A stretch of DNA of 40,069 nucleotides from assembly GCA_013820875.1 (NCBI GenBank), contig JACDHS010000036.1:1-40069 (forward strand). The letters run 5' to 3'. The position numbers were made by a program, and so were the translations under genes. Shown here one piece after another: positions 16,403 through 40,069 of this stretch; the stretch's first letter is position 1; each line of letters opens with the position of its first letter. The DNA comes from Verrucomicrobiota bacterium. Lineage in GTDB: Bacteria > Verrucomicrobiota > Verrucomicrobiia > Limisphaerales > JACDHS01. The notes beneath the pieces are model-generated. The model saw only the letters and a list, made by a program, of their open reading frames with translations. It ran no database searches and had not been told where the DNA came from.

Positions 16403-16772
16403 TGCTGGACGAGGGCGTGGGAAACGTTTCTCTCGTGTTTTTCCGATGGAAAATGTGGTGGAAAATATTTCCCACGTGTCTGCACGATGGAAAAAGGCGT
16501 GAGAAATATTCCCACGACCTCGCACGAATGGAAAAAGTGGTGAGAAATATTTTCCACGTGTTTTGCAGAGTGAAAATTCCGGGAAATATATTTCTGACGT
16601 GTCCGCCCGAAGTGCAGAGGCGTGAGAAATATTTCCCACGACCTCGCACGATGGAAAATGTGGTGGAAAATATTTCCACGTGTTTTACAGAGTGAAAATT
16701 CCGAGAAAAATATTTCCCACGAGTCTGCACGAAGGGAATGAAAGCGAGAAATGTCGTTTCCGCTTCTGTAAG
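16403..16772. repeat. Degenerate 41-bp tandem repeat array, about nine units
   Basis: Aligning the core GAAATATTTCCCACG places unit centres near 16425, 16466, 16507, 16548, 16589, 16630, 16671, 16711 and 16752, a 41-base period with one 40-base step. Each unit combines a purine-rich part such as GATGGAAAATGTGG, a near-palindromic A/T core (GTGGGAAATATTTCCCAC type), and CGTGTCTGCAC or CGACCTCGCAC. Alternate units share more features with each other than with their neighbours, hinting at growth by duplication of two or more units. The units are contiguous with no unique spacers, so this is not a CRISPR. Confidence 0.85.
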
Positions 16773-32308: not shown

Positions 32309-32369
32309 TCAGGAACAGTTGGCTGACGTCCATCGCCTATCGTCTATGCCGCGACGCCAAATTGAGTTC
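32309..32369. repeat. Conserved flank of the 42-bp array, copy A
   Basis: Bases 32309-32337 are identical over 29 positions to 39891-39919, starting TCAGGAACAGTTGG and ending CATCGCC. After a variable stretch, AAATTGAGTTC recurs (32359-32369 and 39934-39944). Five bases later the first 42-bp unit begins. Its fixed position beside both arrays suggests it belongs to the same element. Confidence 0.85.
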
Positions 32370-32374
32370 GCCGC

Positions 32375-32540
32375 AAAGTGGCCAACACACTGTGTGGACG
32401 TCGTTTCCGCAGTTTCAAAGTGGACAACACAGTGTGCGGACGTCGTTTCCACAGTTTCAAAGTGGACAACACAGTGTGCGGACGCCGTTTCCGCAGTTTC
32501 AAAGTGGACAACACACTGTGTTGCCCACGTTTTTTGGCGA
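32375..32540. repeat. 42-bp tandem repeat array A, about four units
   Basis: Units start at 32375, 32417, 32459 and 32501, an exact 42-base period; the last unit decays after about 25 bases. Each begins AAAGTGG, carries an ACAC/GTGT near-palindrome, then has GACG at unit positions 23-26, GTTTCC and CAGTTTC. Units differ at only a few bases. There are no spacers between units. Forty-two bases equals four helical turns, so equivalent sites lie on the same DNA face. Confidence 0.92.
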
Positions 32541-32565
32541 CCCAAAGCAGAAAACCCCTTATCCT

Positions 32566-32738
32566 AAAAACGGCAGTTAACCGCTAATCTTCGCTAATAG
32601 TCGCTAATGGAGAAGTGGTTATGCGAAACAAAGACTTCACCCGACAGGTTGTTCGGTTTTCAAGCGGCCTTCCTCGCAATTTCCCTCTGATTAGCGGTCA
32701 TTAGCGTAGATTAGCGGTATTGAACTGCCGGATTTAGG
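32566..32738. repeat. CGCTAAT element, copy 1
   Basis: A 173-base element with inverted ends. The left end has CGCTAAT at 32582, 32592 and 32602; the right end has ATTAGCG at 32690, 32700 and 32710. All are spaced exactly 10 bases apart. Outer CGGCAGTT (32571-32578) and AACTGCCG (32723-32730) are also inverse copies. The interior shares GACTTCACCC with copy 2 and has no gene. Confidence 0.92.
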
Positions 32739-32895
32739 CTTATTTTTCGACAATTCGCCCGAATGAAGCTCCCGGACCAGCGTGCGAAACACGCGAAATC
32801 ATATCCCAATCGGGCCGTCCCAAAATGCCCTGTTCCCCGGTTTTTTAATGGATTACCCGGAAAACCGCAGGAACGGCGCACCAAGGAAAATGGTT

Positions 32896-34602
32896 CTACG
32901 CGGTTGGCAGGACGAGTGTGATCGTGGTCCCTTTGCCCTGTTCCGACGTCAGTTGGATTTCACCCCGGTGTGTTTCGACAACCCGCTTGACGATTGCCAG
33001 GCCGAGTCCGGTTCCTTTGGCTTTGGTTGTGTTCAACAGTGAAGTGAAAGCGCGTTCCCGTTGTTCGACCGACATCCCTTCGCCGGTGTCCTTGAACTCG
33101 ATCACAACGGATTTTTTCCCTGCGCGGGTTGTGATGGTGAGTTGGCCGCCGTGTGGCATGGCTTCGACGGCGTTCAAGACGAGGTTTAAACTCGCTTGTT
33201 CAAGTTGAGAGGAATCGGCGGCAATATCCGGCATAGCTGGATCGAGATGCCGGATAAGCTCGATGTTTTGATTGCGCAATTTGTGGCGGATCAGGAGGCC
33301 GAGGTTTTCGATGAGTTGATTGACGTTGACCGGAGCCAACTTGGGCTCTGCGCTGCGGGCAAAGTCGAGGATCTGTTCCACGATCTTGTTCAGGTGTTCC
33401 ATTTTTTCGCCCATGATAGCGGCATCCCGGGCGCGGGGATCCTCATCGCTAAACTTGAGGTCGAGGGAATGGAACATCATTTTCATGACCGTCAGCGGAT
33501 TGCGAATCTCGTGGGCAACCTCCGCAGCGAGAAGGCCCAGGGCGGAAAGTTTTTCGTTTTGGCGCAGTTGTTCCTCCGCATCCACCACCCGTTCATAGAG
33601 TCGCGCCTTTTCGATCGCGATGGCGGAGAGTTCCGCGAGGGCAGAAAGGATGCGAATCTCTTCGTTGGAAAAATTGTAGGATTCCCCCTTGTAAACATTC
33701 AGTGCGCCGATGGCTTGGCCGCGATAGAGCAACGGAACACTGAGAAACGACACGAGACCTTCCTGGATGGCGACAGCGATGTTGTGGTAACGCCCTGAGG
33801 TTTGCACGTTGCCGACCTGGATCGGTTTTTTGCGGCGAACCACTGTTCCGGCGAGACTTTCGAGGAGTTCGAGGCGCGGTTTGTTGATATACACTGCACT
33901 GGCTCCGCAACTGGCCCGCAGATCGAGCCACTCTCCGGTTTCATCCAGCATCAGGAGAGAACACATTTTGGCGTTCATCAACTGGTGGGCTTCACGAGTG
34001 ATGACTTGCAGGGCGTCATCGAGATTTAACGTGGAGTTGATGGTCTGCCCGATGCTGACCAGTGTTTCGAACAGGCGGGCTTTGAGGCGAAGTTGTTCAT
34101 AAAGCCAGGTGTTCTGAATCACCTTGGACGCTTGCAAGGCGAGTTCTTCGAGCAACTGCTGGTCGTCGCCGCTAAATGCCTCGGGTCGGGTCGAATCAAC
34201 ATTGATGACACCGCGTGGTTCGTCCTTGAGCAGCAGGGGGACAGCAAGTTCGGAGCAAACGTCCGGGCGAAGCATTATATAGCGGGGATCAGCGCTGACG
34301 TTTCCCACGCGGGCAGGTTTACCGTGGCGCGCCACCCATCCTGTGATTCCTTCCCCTATGTGAAGGGGCGGGCGAACAATGTTTTCGAGAAGGCCGGTGG
34401 AAGCTGCTATTTCCAGAAAACCTGTGTTGGGATTGATAAGAGAGATTGAGCCGCTGGTGGCATGGGTGATCCGGACCGTTTCGCGCAAAATGAGTTCGAG
34501 AGTCTCCTGGGGGTCGAGCGTGGAATGAAGGGTGTTGCTGACCTGGTAGAGAACGGTCAGCCGTTCGTAACGACTTCTCAGTTCAACCAGTTCATCGCTC
34601 AT
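32896..34602 (-). CDS. GAF-GAF sensor histidine kinase
   Basis: A 568-residue soluble kinase with no transmembrane segment. Two GAF domains (about 25-165 and 180-335) should sense a small ligand or redox signal. The HisKA domain (about 350-415) carries AHEIRNPL with phosphoacceptor His364. The ATPase domain (about 460-567) has Asn477 in the N-box, DTGEGM (505-510) and GTGLGLAIV (530-538), all intact, in contrast to the degenerate kinase near 19922. The ATG at 34602 is selected because it lies 13 bases after the LptF/G gene and upstream residues are low-complexity. No response regulator is adjacent. Confidence 0.93.
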   Translation of the reverse strand: MSDELVELRSRYERLTVLYQVSNTLHSTLDPQETLELILRETVRITHATSGSISLINPNTGFLEIAASTGLLENIVRPPLHIGEGITGWVARHGKPARVGNVSADPRYIMLRPDVCSELAVPLLLKDEPRGVINVDSTRPEAFSGDDQQLLEELALQASKVIQNTWLYEQLRLKARLFETLVSIGQTINSTLNLDDALQVITREAHQLMNAKMCSLLMLDETGEWLDLRASCGASAVYINKPRLELLESLAGTVVRRKKPIQVGNVQTSGRYHNIAVAIQEGLVSFLSVPLLYRGQAIGALNVYKGESYNFSNEEIRILSALAELSAIAIEKARLYERVVDAEEQLRQNEKLSALGLLAAEVAHEIRNPLTVMKMMFHSLDLKFSDEDPRARDAAIMGEKMEHLNKIVEQILDFARSAEPKLAPVNVNQLIENLGLLIRHKLRNQNIELIRHLDPAMPDIAADSSQLEQASLNLVLNAVEAMPHGGQLTITTRAGKKSVVIEFKDTGEGMSVEQRERAFTSLLNTTKAKGTGLGLAIVKRVVETHRGEIQLTSEQGKGTTITLVLPTA

Positions 34603-34615
34603 ATCGTCTTCACAA

Positions 34616-35734
34616 TTACCGCACCCGGAGAGTGAGGACAATGCCGGCGACGGCAAAGAAAACATTCGGAAGCCACGCTGCCAGCCATCCGGGCAAATAC
34701 CCGCCGGTCCCAAGGGCGAGCCCAAGCTTGAAAAGGATGAAATAGATGAACGCGATAAAAATGCTCGCAGCCACGCCGACAAAGACATTGCGCCGTCCCG
34801 ACGGTGCTCCAAACGGAATGGCAATCAACACCACGACCAAACAGGTCCAGGGCGCCGCGATACGACTGTGCAGTTGCGTATTGAGCATGGCTGCCTGGGC
34901 CGGGGGGAGATCGGGGTGCAAACGGAAGTAATCCAAAATCTCCGCCAGGGAAAGTTGTGCTCCTTTGGCGGCGTCCTTGATGCTAAGCGTATTGATTTTG
35001 ATTTCGCTTCTGATCAACTCGGGGGTTTCCGAAAAATCCGCAAATGAGAGGACATTCGTTTCCGTGCGAAGCGGATACATGTAGGCGGGAGACGTAACCG
35101 CTTCCTGCACGTTAAAGAATGTCCATGAGCCTTCGCTATAGCGACCGCGCTCGGCATTGATCACGCGCTTCACATTCCCCGGCAGCTCCCAGATGAGCGT
35201 GGGCGACAACATTTCGCCCGTGCGCAAATTGTAAGCGGCGATATTCCAGGATCGATTCTCGGGGGTGTTTTTGAAAAAAAGATTCTTTTTCCAATCCAGG
35301 GAGGTGGCGCTGGTCTCCGAAATGTAACGGGTAAGAATTTCTTCACTCCGTTCCTGGGTCTTGGGCACCCAGAGTTCGTTGATGGCAAACAAGAGCGCGC
35401 TAAAGAAAAAGCCGACCGCCAGGTACGGCAATGACAATCGCCACAAACTGATGCCCGCAGCGCGAATGGCCGTGAGTTCGTGGTGTCGGGCGTGGTTGGT
35501 GAGCGCGTAAAGCAGCGCGAGAAGCAACGCAACGGGGAGCACGACCGAAAGTAACTCCGGTGTCCGCACCAGGTAGTATTCGGCGATGTCGGTTGCTTTG
35601 AGTTTGTTCCTTTGAAATTCGTTGATCTCGGAGAAGACATCGAACGAAATCCAAAAGATCAGAAAACCGCCGATGCAATAGCTGAGCGGGACGAGCAGTT
35701 CGCGTAGCAGGTAGCGATCGAGCAGACGCATCAT
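34616..35734 (-). CDS. LptF/LptG family LPS export permease
   Basis: A 372-residue YjgP/YjgQ permease, the inner-membrane part of the Lpt complex that extracts LPS and sends it to the outer membrane. It has about six transmembrane segments: three in the first 125 residues (including IGGFLIFWISFDVF and VVLPVALLLALLYAL) and three in the last 90. The central soluble domain (about 130-280) is the beta-jellyroll that passes LPS onward. LLDRYLLRELLVPL is the family's usual start. Three bases separate it from pheA upstream. Whether it is LptF or LptG cannot be decided, and the second permease is not in the window. Confidence 0.9.
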   Translation of the reverse strand: MMRLLDRYLLRELLVPLSYCIGGFLIFWISFDVFSEINEFQRNKLKATDIAEYYLVRTPELLSVVLPVALLLALLYALTNHARHHELTAIRAAGISLWRLSLPYLAVGFFFSALLFAINELWVPKTQERSEEILTRYISETSATSLDWKKNLFFKNTPENRSWNIAAYNLRTGEMLSPTLIWELPGNVKRVINAERGRYSEGSWTFFNVQEAVTSPAYMYPLRTETNVLSFADFSETPELIRSEIKINTLSIKDAAKGAQLSLAEILDYFRLHPDLPPAQAAMLNTQLHSRIAAPWTCLVVVLIAIPFGAPSGRRNVFVGVAASIFIAFIYFILFKLGLALGTGGYLPGWLAAWLPNVFFAVAGIVLTLRVR

Positions 35735-35737
35735 CGG

Positions 35738-36799
35738 TTACTCAGCGTTCGGGTAGGAACCAAGGACTTTCACGAAATGGCAAACCTGTTCGAGGTCAAC
35801 AATCGCCCTGGCGACTTTCTTCTCAGAGAAATGACCGTCACAATCCACAAAGAAAAAATATTCCCACGCTTTGCGTTTGCTTGGGCGAGATTCGATTTTC
35901 GTCATGTTGAGTTTGTATTTCTGAAATGGAGCGAGCGCAGAATGCAGCGCGCCCACTTCATCCTTAATGCTCAACATCAGGCTGGTGCGATCCTTGCCAG
36001 TGGCCGGGCTGCATGTCCGGCCGAGCACAAGGAACCGGGTGGCGTTGACTGAATTATCCTGAACATTTATTTCCAGGATGGGGACATTATATTTTTCGGC
36101 AGCCAAAGCGCCGGCGATGGCGGCGGAGTTTTTCTCTTTGGCAGCAAATTCCACGGAGCGGGCATTGGAAGAGGTCTCGATAATTTCCGCATTCGGGAAA
36201 TGGCGTTGAATAAAGGCGCGACATTGCGCGAGCGTCTGCGGATGGGTGTAGAGTTTTGTTATCTCCGTCTTCTTGAAGCGGCTGACGAGACAGTGCTGGA
36301 TGCGAAGAATGATTTGCGCAACGATTTTGAGGTCGCTTTCCACGAACATGTCGAGGGTGTGTGTGACAACGCCTTCGGTTGAATTCTCGACCGGGACCAC
36401 GCCATAGTCCGCGCGTAGTTTGCTCACCTCGGTAAAAACTTCGGCAATGGTTCTTTGTGGTGAGTATTTCAGGCTCGCGCCGAAACGGCGGATGGCAGCT
36501 TCATGGGTGAAGGTGGCCTCCGGGCCGAGGAAGGCTATCGCCATGGATTTCTCGAGCGAGAGTGCGCTGGACATGATCTCCCGGTAAATCGCTCGCAAAG
36601 ATTCGCTGGTAATCGGGCCTGCATTCATTTTGCAGATGCGATCGAGCACCGCCTGTTCCCTGTGCGGGGCATAAATTTCTTCGCCCGCCTTGAGTTTGAT
36701 TTCGCCGATATGCAGAACGTGTTCGGTTCGCTCGTTAAGGAGCTTCACGATTTGGGCGTCGAGCTTGTCTATGGCTTTGCGATGCTCAGTAAGGTTCAT
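35738..36799 (-). CDS. pheA: Bifunctional chorismate mutase / prephenate dehydratase
   Basis: A 353-residue P-protein of phenylalanine biosynthesis. Residues 1-85 are an AroQ-type chorismate mutase, residues about 87-262 the prephenate dehydratase with the catalytic NATRF motif (252-256), and residues about 272-350 an ACT domain. The regulatory motifs GALH (283-286) and ESRP (303-306) are intact, so feedback inhibition by phenylalanine is expected. The ATG at 36799 is chosen over an upstream start with a cysteine-rich extension. Downstream lie LptF/G and the GAF kinase. Confidence 0.95.
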   Translation of the reverse strand: MNLTEHRKAIDKLDAQIVKLLNERTEHVLHIGEIKLKAGEEIYAPHREQAVLDRICKMNAGPITSESLRAIYREIMSSALSLEKSMAIAFLGPEATFTHEAAIRRFGASLKYSPQRTIAEVFTEVSKLRADYGVVPVENSTEGVVTHTLDMFVESDLKIVAQIILRIQHCLVSRFKKTEITKLYTHPQTLAQCRAFIQRHFPNAEIIETSSNARSVEFAAKEKNSAAIAGALAAEKYNVPILEINVQDNSVNATRFLVLGRTCSPATGKDRTSLMLSIKDEVGALHSALAPFQKYKLNMTKIESRPSKRKAWEYFFFVDCDGHFSEKKVARAIVDLEQVCHFVKVLGSYPNAE

Positions 36800-36859
36800 G
36801 CTGCGGCAAACAATACAGGACTCCCACAAATGCGGCAGGAGAAAATTGGTCGGATGTTT

Positions 36860-38602
36860 TTAGTGCGCTGCAGTGACAATGAGCGTTTGTTCCAGCGTGG
36901 AGATGCCTTCCTTCACTTTGTCCAAAGCCGCGTCGCGCAAGGTTTTCATCCCTTGTTCGACGGCGATTTTGCCGATCTCGCTCGCGCTCGCACGTTGGAT
37001 CACCAGCTTGCGAATCTCGTCGGTCATCGTCATGACCTCAATGATGGCGGCTCGTCCTGAATACCCGCTGTTCTTGCAACGATCACAACCGCGACCGCGA
37101 TAAAACGTAACGCCGTCCATGGTTTTGGGATCGATGTCGAGATCCTTGAACATTTTGGCTTCGTAAGTGACCGGTTCTTTGCACGCGTTGCAGATACGGC
37201 GCATCAGACGCTGCGCACAGGCAAGAATGACCGCGGATGAGATCAAGAACGGTTGAATGCCCATGTCATCCAGACGCGCAATAGCTCCCGGTGCGTCGTT
37301 ACAATGCATCGTGCTTAAGACCTGATGCCCCGTGAGCGCGGCTTCGACAGCGATCTCTGCCGTTTCGGTATCACGAATTTCACCGATCATTACGATGTCC
37401 GGATCCTGGCGGAGAATGGAACGCAGGGCGCTCGCAAAGGTAAGCCCGATTTCTTTCTTCACCGGCACCTGGTTAATGCCGGGGATCTGGAATTCAACCG
37501 GATCTTCCACGGTGACGATGTTGTATTCCGGATTGTTCAGTTCGTTGAGAGCGGAATAGAGTGTGGTCGTTTTGCCAGAGCCGGTAGGGCCGGTGACAAG
37601 CAGCAAACCGTGTGGCGCATCCACGGCGGATTTGAAGCGGCGGAAGGTGTCAACATCCATCCCCAGCTTGTCGATGCTTGCTGACAAGTTGCCTTTGTCC
37701 AAAATACGGAGCACGCATTTCTCACCATGCGAGGTAGGCAGGAAAGAGACGCGTAAATCGATTTCTTTTCCTGCGACTTTGACCCGCATGCGCCCGTCTT
37801 GCGGTAATCGACGTTCCGCAATGTCGAGGTTGCTCATGATCTTGAGGCGGGAGGCGAGCGCGATCTGCAAATTCTTCGGCGGTGGCGGCATGTCAGCGAG
37901 AGCGCCGTCAATGCGGTAACGCAAACGCACAACTTTTTCGAACGGCTCAAGATGGATATCGCTCGCTCGATCTTTAATCGCCTGCACGAGAATCAAATTT
38001 GCCAGTTTGATGACCGGGGCCTCTTCCGTGGAAGCTGCCAATGCGCCAATGTCAGCGACATCGTCGAACATCTGCTGGGACACTTCGAGATTGTCCGCGT
38101 CGGCTTCGGCGTCCGCCTGTTTTTGAGCGTCCTGGAGGAAATCCTCCATGCTGTTGCCGGCTGCGCTGTCCCAGTTCGCGATTTTGTCCATGATCGCCCG
38201 TTCGGTAGCAATCATGGGAACTACTTCGAGCTTCGTGATGCGCTTGACGTCATCAACGGCGATGACGTTCAGCGGATCGACCATGGCCAGGAACAACTTG
38301 TTATCCAGCCTGCAAATCGGAACGACTTTGTAATTGTTCGCTATGTCCTTTGGGAGGAGGTCGGTTAGCTCGGGGGACAATTGCACGCGAGCAAGATTGA
38401 TGGGGGGCGTATTGAGAACGCGTCCCATGCAGACAACCATATCCATCTCGGTGACGTAAGCCTTCTCGAGCAGCAGTTTGTGAAGGCGAAGACCTTCTTT
38501 CTTCTGCCGCGCCAGAAGTTCGTCCACCTGTGTTAATGTGAGCAGGCCGTCTTCGACGAGAGCGTCGGCAATGCGTTCTCCAAATGATTTTACAGGGGGC
38601 AT
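36860..38602 (-). CDS. GspE/PilB-type secretion ATPase
   Basis: A 580-residue hexameric motor ATPase for type IV pilus assembly or type II secretion. The N-terminal MshEN-like domain (about 1-140) and an acidic linker (about 145-195) precede the ATPase core. Walker A is GPTGSGKTTT (Lys344), the Asp box is about 363-371, Walker B is DIVMIGEIRD (402-411) and the His box is STMHCND. A zinc-binding loop has CNAC (471-474) and CDRC (506-509), common in PilB and GspE. It follows the TPR/GspE-N protein by three bases and probably works with it; pilin and secretin genes are not in the window. Confidence 0.94.
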   Translation of the reverse strand: MPPVKSFGERIADALVEDGLLTLTQVDELLARQKKEGLRLHKLLLEKAYVTEMDMVVCMGRVLNTPPINLARVQLSPELTDLLPKDIANNYKVVPICRLDNKLFLAMVDPLNVIAVDDVKRITKLEVVPMIATERAIMDKIANWDSAAGNSMEDFLQDAQKQADAEADADNLEVSQQMFDDVADIGALAASTEEAPVIKLANLILVQAIKDRASDIHLEPFEKVVRLRYRIDGALADMPPPPKNLQIALASRLKIMSNLDIAERRLPQDGRMRVKVAGKEIDLRVSFLPTSHGEKCVLRILDKGNLSASIDKLGMDVDTFRRFKSAVDAPHGLLLVTGPTGSGKTTTLYSALNELNNPEYNIVTVEDPVEFQIPGINQVPVKKEIGLTFASALRSILRQDPDIVMIGEIRDTETAEIAVEAALTGHQVLSTMHCNDAPGAIARLDDMGIQPFLISSAVILACAQRLMRRICNACKEPVTYEAKMFKDLDIDPKTMDGVTFYRGRGCDRCKNSGYSGRAAIIEVMTMTDEIRKLVIQRASASEIGKIAVEQGMKTLRDAALDKVKEGISTLEQTLIVTAAH

Positions 38603-38605
38603 AGC

Positions 38606-39457
38606 TTAGCGGTAGATCTTTTTGATCAGTCTTGAGAGTTCGATGGGATGCACCAGATACCAGATCAGTCTGGTCTGAGATTCGGCCTGCAACTCCTCGG
38701 CGGCCTGCTGGTTGAACGGATTTGCCGTCGCCACCAAAACCGATTTGCTCATCCGATCAAAAGGCAGGATGCACCAGCGTTGACAAACTTCTTTGCGAAA
38801 GCTCCGCGCCAGATCGAGGTCGATTTCATATTTCTCAATCTGTAAATAACCGAGGCGGGTTTTTTCGATCAGCAGCTTGAGCGATTTATCAATCGGAAAG
38901 ATCGCTTTTTCATGCAAACCGGCCAGCAGCGGTTCCACCACTTTCCCGGGTGGTTCGTTCAGCAGCGGCATCGGCCAGTGAGTGGTGAAATCCCCTGCCG
39001 AAACGATATTCGATTCCACAAACAACTTGTGCATCATCTGCCGGCCATCGTCGATGTCGGAGTGACTCAACACGCGCGAGGCGGCTTTTTCTTTTTTTGT
39101 AAAAGTGGTGTGGACGCTTTGGGCGACGCTGTCACTGTCCGTGCTTCCTGCCGTGAGGCTGTTCGCCCGCATTTCGATCTCTGCCAATGCAGTCAACACA
39201 TCCGGATCTTCCGGATAACGCTGGAGAATGGTTTCGTATTCGAGGATGGCCGAGGAAAGCTGCCCCATCAAAACGTAAGCCTGGGCAATGCGTTTCGAGG
39301 TGGCGATGACATCCTTGTGGCGCTCCAGCTTGAGGTAAGCTTCCTTGAGAATTTCCAGCGATTGATAATCATTCGGTTGTGATTGAGTAATCACTTCGAA
39401 CATCTCAATCGTCTGCAACACCTGTGCTTCTTCGCTTGGAGTAATCGTGCCGAGCAT
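38606..39457 (-). CDS. TPR protein with C-terminal GspE N-domain
   Basis: A 283-residue cytoplasmic protein. Residues about 10-100 look like TPR helices (AYLKLERHKDVIATSKRIAQ, then AYVLMGQLSSAILEYETIL). A linker rich in Ser and Thr follows (about 98-125). The C-terminal 80 residues resemble the N-terminal domain of GspE/PilB ATPases (CQRWCILPFDRMSKSVLVAT). It has no ATPase core. It lies directly upstream of the secretion ATPase gene and is probably its operon partner, perhaps an adaptor or a competitor for an ATPase partner. The exact role is unknown. Confidence 0.75.
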   Translation of the reverse strand: MLGTITPSEEAQVLQTIEMFEVITQSQPNDYQSLEILKEAYLKLERHKDVIATSKRIAQAYVLMGQLSSAILEYETILQRYPEDPDVLTALAEIEMRANSLTAGSTDSDSVAQSVHTTFTKKEKAASRVLSHSDIDDGRQMMHKLFVESNIVSAGDFTTHWPMPLLNEPPGKVVEPLLAGLHEKAIFPIDKSLKLLIEKTRLGYLQIEKYEIDLDLARSFRKEVCQRWCILPFDRMSKSVLVATANPFNQQAAEELQAESQTRLIWYLVHPIELSRLIKKIYR

Positions 39458-39518
39458 CGTTTCTTTCTTTTCAGCAGGTTGACCCTAACCCCTTTTCCTA
39501 CTGGGTAAAATCCGGGTG

Positions 39519-39548
39519 AGTTTAGTTGTTGCAGTTACCTTCTGCAAC
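39519..39548 (-). promoter_or_regulatory. Candidate promoter overlapping an inverted repeat
   Basis: Read on the minus strand, TTGCAG (39547-39542) and TAAACT (39524-39519) are 17 bases apart, as for a sigma-70 promoter, about 55 bases before the TPR protein. GTTGCAG and CTGCAAC (39528-39534 and 39542-39548) form a 7-bp inverted repeat covering the -35 box and spacer, which could be an operator. On the plus strand the same repeat followed by TTTT resembles a weak terminator. Confidence 0.32.
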
Positions 39549-39599
39549 TTTTGTATTGGGAAACACGCCGGGATTTGCGCAGCCCCACCATTTCACCCC

Positions 39600-39774
39600 A
39601 AAAACGGCAGTTTAACCGCTAATCTGCGCTAATAGTCGCTAATGGAGAAACGGTTACGCGAGACAATGACTTCACCCAGCAGGTGGTTTTGTTTGCCAAG
39701 CTGTTTCCCCCGCAAATCTTTGGATTAGCGTTCATTAGCGCAGATTAGCGGTTAAGTAACTGCCGGATTTAGGT
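39600..39774. repeat. CGCTAAT element, copy 2
   Basis: A 175-base relative of the copy at 32566. CGCTAAT lies at 39617, 39627 and 39637, and ATTAGCG at 39724, 39734 and 39744, again exactly 10 bases apart. Outer CGGCAGTT (39605-39612) and AACTGCCG (39758-39765) match copy 1. The interiors have diverged at many positions while all six heptamers are kept, which suggests they matter. Confidence 0.92.
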
Positions 39775-39890
39775 TCACCGGTAAACGCCATTCGGCGGGA
39801 AGCGCAAACAGGCCTGCAAAGGGGGGATGGCGAGTCGTAGAAACGTTATAAGCGGCTCCTTTGCGGGATTTGTACCCCAGAGCCTCCCGG

Positions 39891-39944
39891 TCAGGAACAG
39901 TTGGCTGACGTCCATCGCCCATGCGCGCCCGCTAAATTGAGTTC
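39891..39944. repeat. Conserved flank of the 42-bp array, copy B
   Basis: Shares the 29-base identical block (39891-39919) and AAATTGAGTTC (39934-39944) with copy A, with a shorter variable stretch between them. The array begins six bases later. The 116 bases before it (39775-39890) hold nothing I can identify. Confidence 0.85.
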
Positions 39945-39950
39945 CCCGGG

Positions 39951-40069
39951 AACGTGGACTTGAGACCATCCAGGCCGTTTCCGGATGATCCGGAAGTGGG
40001 CTTGAGACCATCCAGACGGTTTCCGGATGATCCGAAAGTGGGCTTGAGACCATCCAGACGGTTTCCGGA
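39951..40069. repeat. 42-bp tandem repeat array B, truncated by the window edge
   Basis: Units start at 39951, 39993 and 40035, exactly 42 bases apart; the third is cut at 35 bases, so the array continues outside. Units begin AAAGTGGGC or close variants, have GACG at unit positions 23-26 as in array A, and contain the near-perfect palindrome TTTCCGGATGATCCGGAAA spanning the unit junction. The sequence between the shared motifs differs entirely from array A. Confidence 0.92.

Follow-up and report, generated by a model that had tools for sequence, protein, structure and literature searches.

Tandem arrays of fixed unit length and free sequence, partly borne by miniature transposons, in a Verrucomicrobiota genome

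The window studied here is the whole of contig JACDHS010000036.1 (40,069 nucleotides; contig C28 of the source genome, G000) from the draft assembly GCA_013820875.1 of a Verrucomicrobiota bacterium. It contains two tandem arrays of 42-bp units behind a common leader, and a third array of unrelated sequence and nearly the same period. The source genome and a member of another genus in its family carry a lineage-specific class of such arrays that are apparently for the most part noncoding, fixed in repeat length, free in sequence, and internally phased to the DNA helix, and that are in part borne by miniature inverted-repeat transposable elements (MITEs). The interpretation that we favor, with some reserve, is that these satellite-like arrays keep a length of four helical turns (41 to 43 bp) while their sequence drifts freely, and that they do helically phased work as DNA.

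One repeat length, many sequences, and a helical period

Loci retrieved for their MITE ends unexpectedly contained further arrays with periods of 41 to 43 bp and unrelated units, which prompted sampling of the largest contigs regardless of whether they carried arrays (829 kb including the window; arrays with a period of at least 28 bp). The base period was 40 to 43 bp in 44 of the 48 arrays found, or 53 per Mb. Where the apparent period is 82 to 83, 123 to 126, or 168 to 170 bp, two, three, or four units, respectively, make up a higher-order repeat. Extrapolation to 5.7 Mb gives about 300 arrays, a figure that, like all rates given here, derives from samples of draft genomes rather than from complete genomes. 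Higher-order repeats of three or four units of about 42 bp, as in eukaryotic satellites, are visible at L207 (4478-4806), L266 (11301-11568), L270 (279-557), and L275 (18228-18567). The clearest coding array in the sample is of another kind: L211 (15020-16122) has tandem repeats of 138 to 147 bp, in multiples of three, that apparently code for CxxCH-like motifs, possibly those of a multiheme cytochrome.

The same length class dominates in G001, the only other genome found for the same family, which belongs to another genus: 13 of 17 arrays had a base period of 40 to 43 bp (279 kb; 47 per Mb). Among 27 genomes of other families of the order (865 kb), none of the eight arrays with a period of at least 28 bp fell into this class.

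Sequence is not conserved. Depending on the threshold, the arrays of the source genome fall into 15 to 23 sequence families and those of G001 into about 12. No unit common to the two genomes scored above the shuffled control (best match, 15; shuffled maximum, 16), and a search of the source genome with one G001 array, run without a positive control, returned no match. Nor did any 5- to 7-mer occur in more families than it did in shuffled units, as a short motif common to the families would have done.

A length of 41 to 43 bp corresponds to four turns of the DNA helix, and a one-turn modulation is evident inside the units. Averaged autocorrelation inside arrays peaks locally near 10 to 12, 20 to 22, 31, and 41 to 42 bp. 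When one representative of each of 27 families from both genomes was compared with Markov-shuffled units, the fourth harmonic of the unit, which represents one helical turn (about 10.5 bp), was enriched in the source genome (z = 3.4), in G001 (z = 3.6), and in the combined set (z = 5.1). It was the only harmonic clearly enriched, the others in the combined set ranging from z = -1.6 to 2.0, and its z score stayed between 4.4 and 6.6 under random choice of representatives. The corresponding power ratio was about 1.66 in arrays versus 1.04 in noncoding and 1.09 in coding windows of equal length. The signal is carried by G/C, purine, and keto content, not by long A-tracts, and instead of classical A-tract bending it may reflect an internal resemblance between quarter units or binding on one face of the helix.

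Length and helical phase are the only properties common to all families, and the arrays therefore most likely work as helically phased DNA. Their function is probably helically phased binding or bending. Selection would then act on the geometry of the DNA, in the simplest case via a protein that polymerizes on four-turn units or bends them. Units four turns long would present the same face to such a nucleoid-type protein, and the protein would select against units of other lengths, so that length would be kept and sequence left free. The same idea has been proposed for the satellites of Bacillus (PMC8161180).

Unit types, modules, and terminal hairpins of the A-D family

Both window arrays belong to one element family. 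As the first-pass annotation had stated, two 42-bp tandem arrays stand behind the same flank, here called leader A1, and a 29-base block within it is identical at the two loci (Table 1). Tandem Repeats Finder (TRF) reported a period of 42 for array 1 (3.5 copies, 93%, 32374-32520) and for array 2 (2.9 copies, 93%, 39949-40069). The block has four copies in the genome at up to three mismatches: the two in the window, an exact copy on contig C128, and a copy with one mismatch on C152. The reversed control has none. The C128 and C152 copies both lead into units of the same family as the window arrays, so that 42-bp units follow all four flank copies, as that annotation had expected, although C152 has only one full unit.

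The two window loci are not special. Genome searches with the two arrays returned 91 and 65 matching stretches which, once merged and reoriented, represent about 60 arrays with four related unit types, A, B, C, and D. The first half of the unit is common to B and C, and the second half is common to B and D. In-phase unit matches number 32 for B/C and 30 for B/D, whereas A and B agree at only 17 of 42 positions, no better than at the best other shift (17). The unit frame that was thought to be shared by the two window arrays is thus carried by the flank and is not apparent from the units alone. The proposed unit signature, a start of AAGTGG with GACG at positions 23 to 26, needs small corrections: GACG occupies positions 22 to 25 in the phase used here, and the first unit of array 2 begins ACGTGG and has GGCC in place of the GACG found in the other units.

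Within the approximately 60 arrays the spacing was exactly 42 bp in all 227 pairs of consecutive matched units. These pairs came from an ungapped matcher, which units with insertions or deletions would escape; in L093, at least one imperfect unit at the array edge contains an insertion. Inner units carry about two substitutions each. Type A inner units were 92.1% alike within arrays versus 87.9% between arrays, and type B inner units were 92.7% versus 91.1% alike. The within-array excess is small, and separate homogenization, to which the difference between the window arrays had been attributed, was rejected as the main cause of that difference. The effect is real, but the difference mainly reflects two dispersed unit types, A and B.

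The suggestion of a single family of mobile elements, constant in flank and in unit length, was judged right as a whole, except that the flank is itself an interchangeable module. Leader A1 precedes type A units at 15 loci and type B units at 3, and tails are swapped too: A2-A occurs with tail ii or, once, with tail i, and B-B occurs with tail iii or tail i. These combinations support the exchange of leader, unit, and tail modules by recombination, and it is because of this exchange that the window pair has the same leader with different units. Shared variants and higher-order repeats support changes in copy number by unequal exchange inside arrays.

The first unit mostly starts with ACGTGG, and the last half unit continues into its own inverted copy, which ends in CCACGTT. 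Across 26 distinct termini of types A to D, 81.6% of the cells in this terminal hairpin were paired, and covariation was 0.372, compared with 0.161 for shuffled and 0.05 to 0.11 for slid alignments. Pairing is kept by compensating changes across types. How the 5' end of an array pairs with its 3' end is specific to the type, not to the locus.

The compensating changes might indicate that transcripts of the arrays function as hairpin RNAs, whether as small RNAs, sponges, or terminators. The folding of array 1 is more stable than that of its shuffles (z = -3.6), and the satellites of Bacillus coagulans are transcribed (PMC8625621). However, hairpins are not universal (mean folding z, -0.9), array 2 folds weakly (z = -1.8), no terminator or promoter was called around array 1, and inverted repeats are also expected from MITEs. 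An RNA role would moreover leave the four-turn DNA length unexplained, and we consider it improbable. No convincing match to a known RNA family was obtained. A search of plasmid and phage DNA yielded no match, leaving an origin there unsupported, and the tail, when searched for in other species, had four exact pattern matches in unrelated phyla that were read as chance.

A coding function is far less probable still. Arrays of types A and B are open in several frames, as 14-residue peptide repeats would require. Yet 28 of the 48 sampled arrays have periods of 40, 41, or 43 bp, which are not multiples of three, type C arrays are closed in all forward frames, and the open reading frames (ORFs) that span arrays do not have the codon-position GC pattern of neighboring genes. 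On this evidence of period, frame, and codon GC, coding was rejected for the class.

Two further features of the family were observed. Array elements of another kind, A2 (L028, L029, L031, L034, L048, L081, and L084), have imperfect palindromes, ATCCTAAGNGATCNACTTAGGAT, at both ends, and the repeats coincide with many contig ends of the draft genome.

Dispersal with IS1380-type ends

Full-length B elements start with CCTTAAAACGGCAGTTAA and end with TTAACTGCCGTTTTTAGG. Exact 5-bp duplications flank five of the six array elements that have both ends (Table 1). Such end sequences occur 141 times in the genome, compared with 9 for the reversed control, and the nearest end pairs in the fetched loci, most of which lack arrays, have exact duplications in 10 of 13 cases. 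The same ends bound insertion sequences of 1714 to 1730 bp in three relatives, where they enclose one transposase gene and are flanked by exact 5-bp duplications. The best match of this transposase is IS1380 (NF033539), below the curated cutoff, and a DDE domain is present. The duplication pattern NTNAN is common to array elements, MITEs, and insertion sequences, and the IS1380-like insertion sequences of the relatives are the probable source of the MITE ends. No intact transposase of this kind was found in the source genome.

As in IS1380-derived MITEs, terminal repeats and 5-bp duplications are shared with a full insertion sequence of relatives, but the array elements, with tandem arrays as cargo, are 481 to 676 bp long, in contrast to 126 to 177 bp for the ordinary MITEs in this genome. 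Type B arrays have thus been dispersed at least in part as cargo of IS1380-type MITEs, and their mobilization by an IS1380-like transposase is predicted from these ends. An unrelated family of 41-bp arrays also lies within an IS1380-type MITE, with the duplication ATCAA. The placement of arrays inside chimeric MITEs with IS1380-like ends and 5-bp duplications explains the dispersal of type B and of this unrelated family.

The link between type A and IS1380-type ends is more indirect. Type A tails in L026, L030, and L036 continue into the same right ends, type A leaders in L042, L076, L079, L083, L085, and L089 lie after an element with such ends, and the contig ends L076 and L030 have the flank ATTAT in common. 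Five elements (L008, L012, L016, L020, and L026) have a right end only, and a search for the expected duplication revealed no left end for them.

Several other repeats adjoin these elements. A dispersed hairpin repeat (GGACTGCGGTGGCAAGCG...CGCTCTGCCAGCGCAGTCC) has about 20 copies (for example, L055 1417-1525, L192, L194, and L197) and is truncated exactly at the start of the type B array core in several composite MITEs. L055 was considered as an empty site for the B core and was rejected because the hairpin repeat is truncated at the junction rather than split, which leaves no clean empty site. The inverted-repeat family AAAYGGCAGTSGGGAGAAGGTTA flanks some arrays (L015 and L061) and is possibly a third MITE family that hosts arrays. 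The same flanks, CCATTTCAC and TTCACCGG, enclose the window MITE upstream of leader 2 and the MITE at the homologous position in C128 (L094, 299-474), but the two MITEs are oppositely oriented, the result of either an inversion between the MITE ends or two insertions at one site.

Table 1. Features of the window and of related elements elsewhere
Feature	Coordinates or loci	Strand	Evidence or details
A1 leader ahead of array 1; 29-base block at 32309-32337, AAATTGAGTTC at 32359-32369	32309..32375	+	Block at four genome places within three mismatches; A1 precedes A units at 15 loci and B units at 3
Array 1, three type A 42-bp units (32376-32417, 32418-32459, 32460-32501)	32376..32501	+	TRF and unit matching
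End of array 1, terminal half unit and inverted copy (hairpin GTGG..CCAC)	32502..32531	+	Covarying stem in 26 distinct termini of types A to D; also found as inverted repeat
3' tail (type i), first part, interrupted at CCCTTAT by MITE	32532..32562	+	Tail uninterrupted at L027, L040, and L043
MITE (176 bp) with IS1380-type ends that interrupts the tail of array 1; duplicated target CTTAT (32558-32562 / 32739-32743)	32563..32738	.	End-pair analysis
Remainder of 3' tail past MITE (CTTATTTTTCGACAATTCGCCCGAATGAAGC...); 3' limit approximate	32739..32830	+	
MITE (177 bp) upstream of leader 2; duplicated target TTCAC (39592-39596 / 39774-39778)	39597..39773	.	End-pair analysis
A1 leader ahead of array 2; 29-base block at 39891-39919, AAATTGAGTTC at 39934-39944	39891..39951	+	
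Array 2, type B 42-bp units, cut by the contig end	39952..40069	+	
Third window array, with a base period of 41; belongs to the fixed-length class but is unrelated in sequence to A-D	16427..16752	.	TRF
5-bp duplications of array elements	L004, L006, L009, L055, L057		ATAAA, GTAAA, TCCAC, TTGAA, and GTTAA, respectively
IS1380-like insertion sequences	L137, L138 (G148), L139 (G013), L140 (G079)		1714-1730 bp; 5-bp NTNAN duplications

Descent or geometry, and relation to known repeats

Neutral descent is the main rival to helically phased DNA work. The arrays might be selfish passengers without a role, derived from one old 42-bp array that was spread by MITEs and recombination, in which case length would reflect descent rather than selection and unequal exchange would keep the period by default as the sequence turned over. 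The half units that B has in common, in phase, with C and with D would be expected from such descent, as would the partial resemblance, by eye, of the L174/L214 family to type B, the carriage in MITEs with target duplications, the restriction to one lineage, and the exact spacing inside arrays. However, no residual similarity links most families to one another or the two genera, yet both genera retain the period and the helical harmonic, and neutral arrays should drift in length through insertions and deletions. The helical harmonic and the absence of units common to the genera are not easily accounted for by neutral descent, which we regard as possible but rather unlikely.

Several observations nevertheless weigh against selection for helical phase. 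Neutral inheritance of the length is one account that still has to be reckoned with, and the helical signal could be a relic of descent from shorter subrepeats. The comparison within the family relies on a single family-mate, and the periods span 40 to 43 bp rather than being exactly 42. Of the 44 arrays in the length class, 12, mostly with period 42, overlap gene-like ORFs according to a crude gene caller, and 32 lie outside them. Most other array families lack IS1380-type ends, some A-D elements lack a left end, and the A2 elements have ends of another sort. MITE transport therefore covers only part of the arrays, and other routes of dispersal exist.

Helically phased DNA work remains the reading that we prefer. 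The closest known counterparts of the arrays are the largely noncoding constant-size, variable-sequence satellites that Subirana and Messeguer described in bacteria, with repeats of 20 to 21 and 52 nucleotides, the former noted as two helix turns (PMC8161180). As in those genomes, the arrays are many, short, and lineage specific, and several families have one repeat length with unrelated sequences and few other sizes; the dominant length in the source genome extends over many unrelated families. In contrast to those satellites, the repeats here are 41 to 43 nucleotides long, a one-turn harmonic was measured, and part of the arrays reside in MITEs with target duplications, whereas no transposon link appears in that study (PMC8161180). 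Furthermore, short sequences are common to all arrays there, but no motif is common to all families here. The arrays thus look like a new size class, outside the two described and partly transposon borne. As far as the literature examined shows, three things are new: the 41- to 43-nucleotide class, its connection with transposons, and the helical harmonic measured here.

The architecture of the A-D family is similar to that of the BOX elements of Streptococcus pneumoniae and the BOX-type families of S. suis, which are likewise dispersed and consist of a left module, variable tandem middle modules (boxB is about 45 bp), and a right module. The first-pass annotation knew of no named element with this organization, but boxA, tandem boxB, and boxC have it, the same middle module is found between different end modules in S. 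suis, and mobilization has been proposed through the transposase of an insertion sequence whose ends resemble theirs (PMC3049150). The likeness drawn here is one of architecture. The phylum and the insertion sequence differ (here IS1380-like with 5-bp NTNAN duplications), and here the four unit types are a small part of a far more numerous set of arrays, unrelated in sequence but equal in period. CGTC-tagged palindromic repeats (PMC3733652) are also short, dispersed, and abundant, and A-D units contain GACG/CGTC. However, those repeats are single hairpins with stems of 8 to 9 bp, mostly in head-to-head dimers and rarely clustered, whereas the arrays here run head to tail, and array families other than A-D lack the GACG/CGTC motif.

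Why bacterial satellites should be constant in length but free in sequence is an acknowledged puzzle. The addition of a third size, of four turns, in another lineage, in two genera without shared sequences, and with a one-turn modulation suggests that what is conserved is the geometry of the DNA, and predicts either a protein that binds DNA in phase or machinery that operates in whole turns. For part of the arrays, the transposon ends and target duplications supply a definite means of dispersal. A broader rule is conceivable, although we would stop short of favoring it: repeats in bacterial satellites may comprise whole helical turns (about 21, 42, and 52 bp for two, four, and five turns), with helical phase selected rather than sequence. 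Such a rule would operate through a putative protein or process by which DNA is handled or produced in whole turns and, if true, would be the bacterial counterpart of nucleosome-length satellites.

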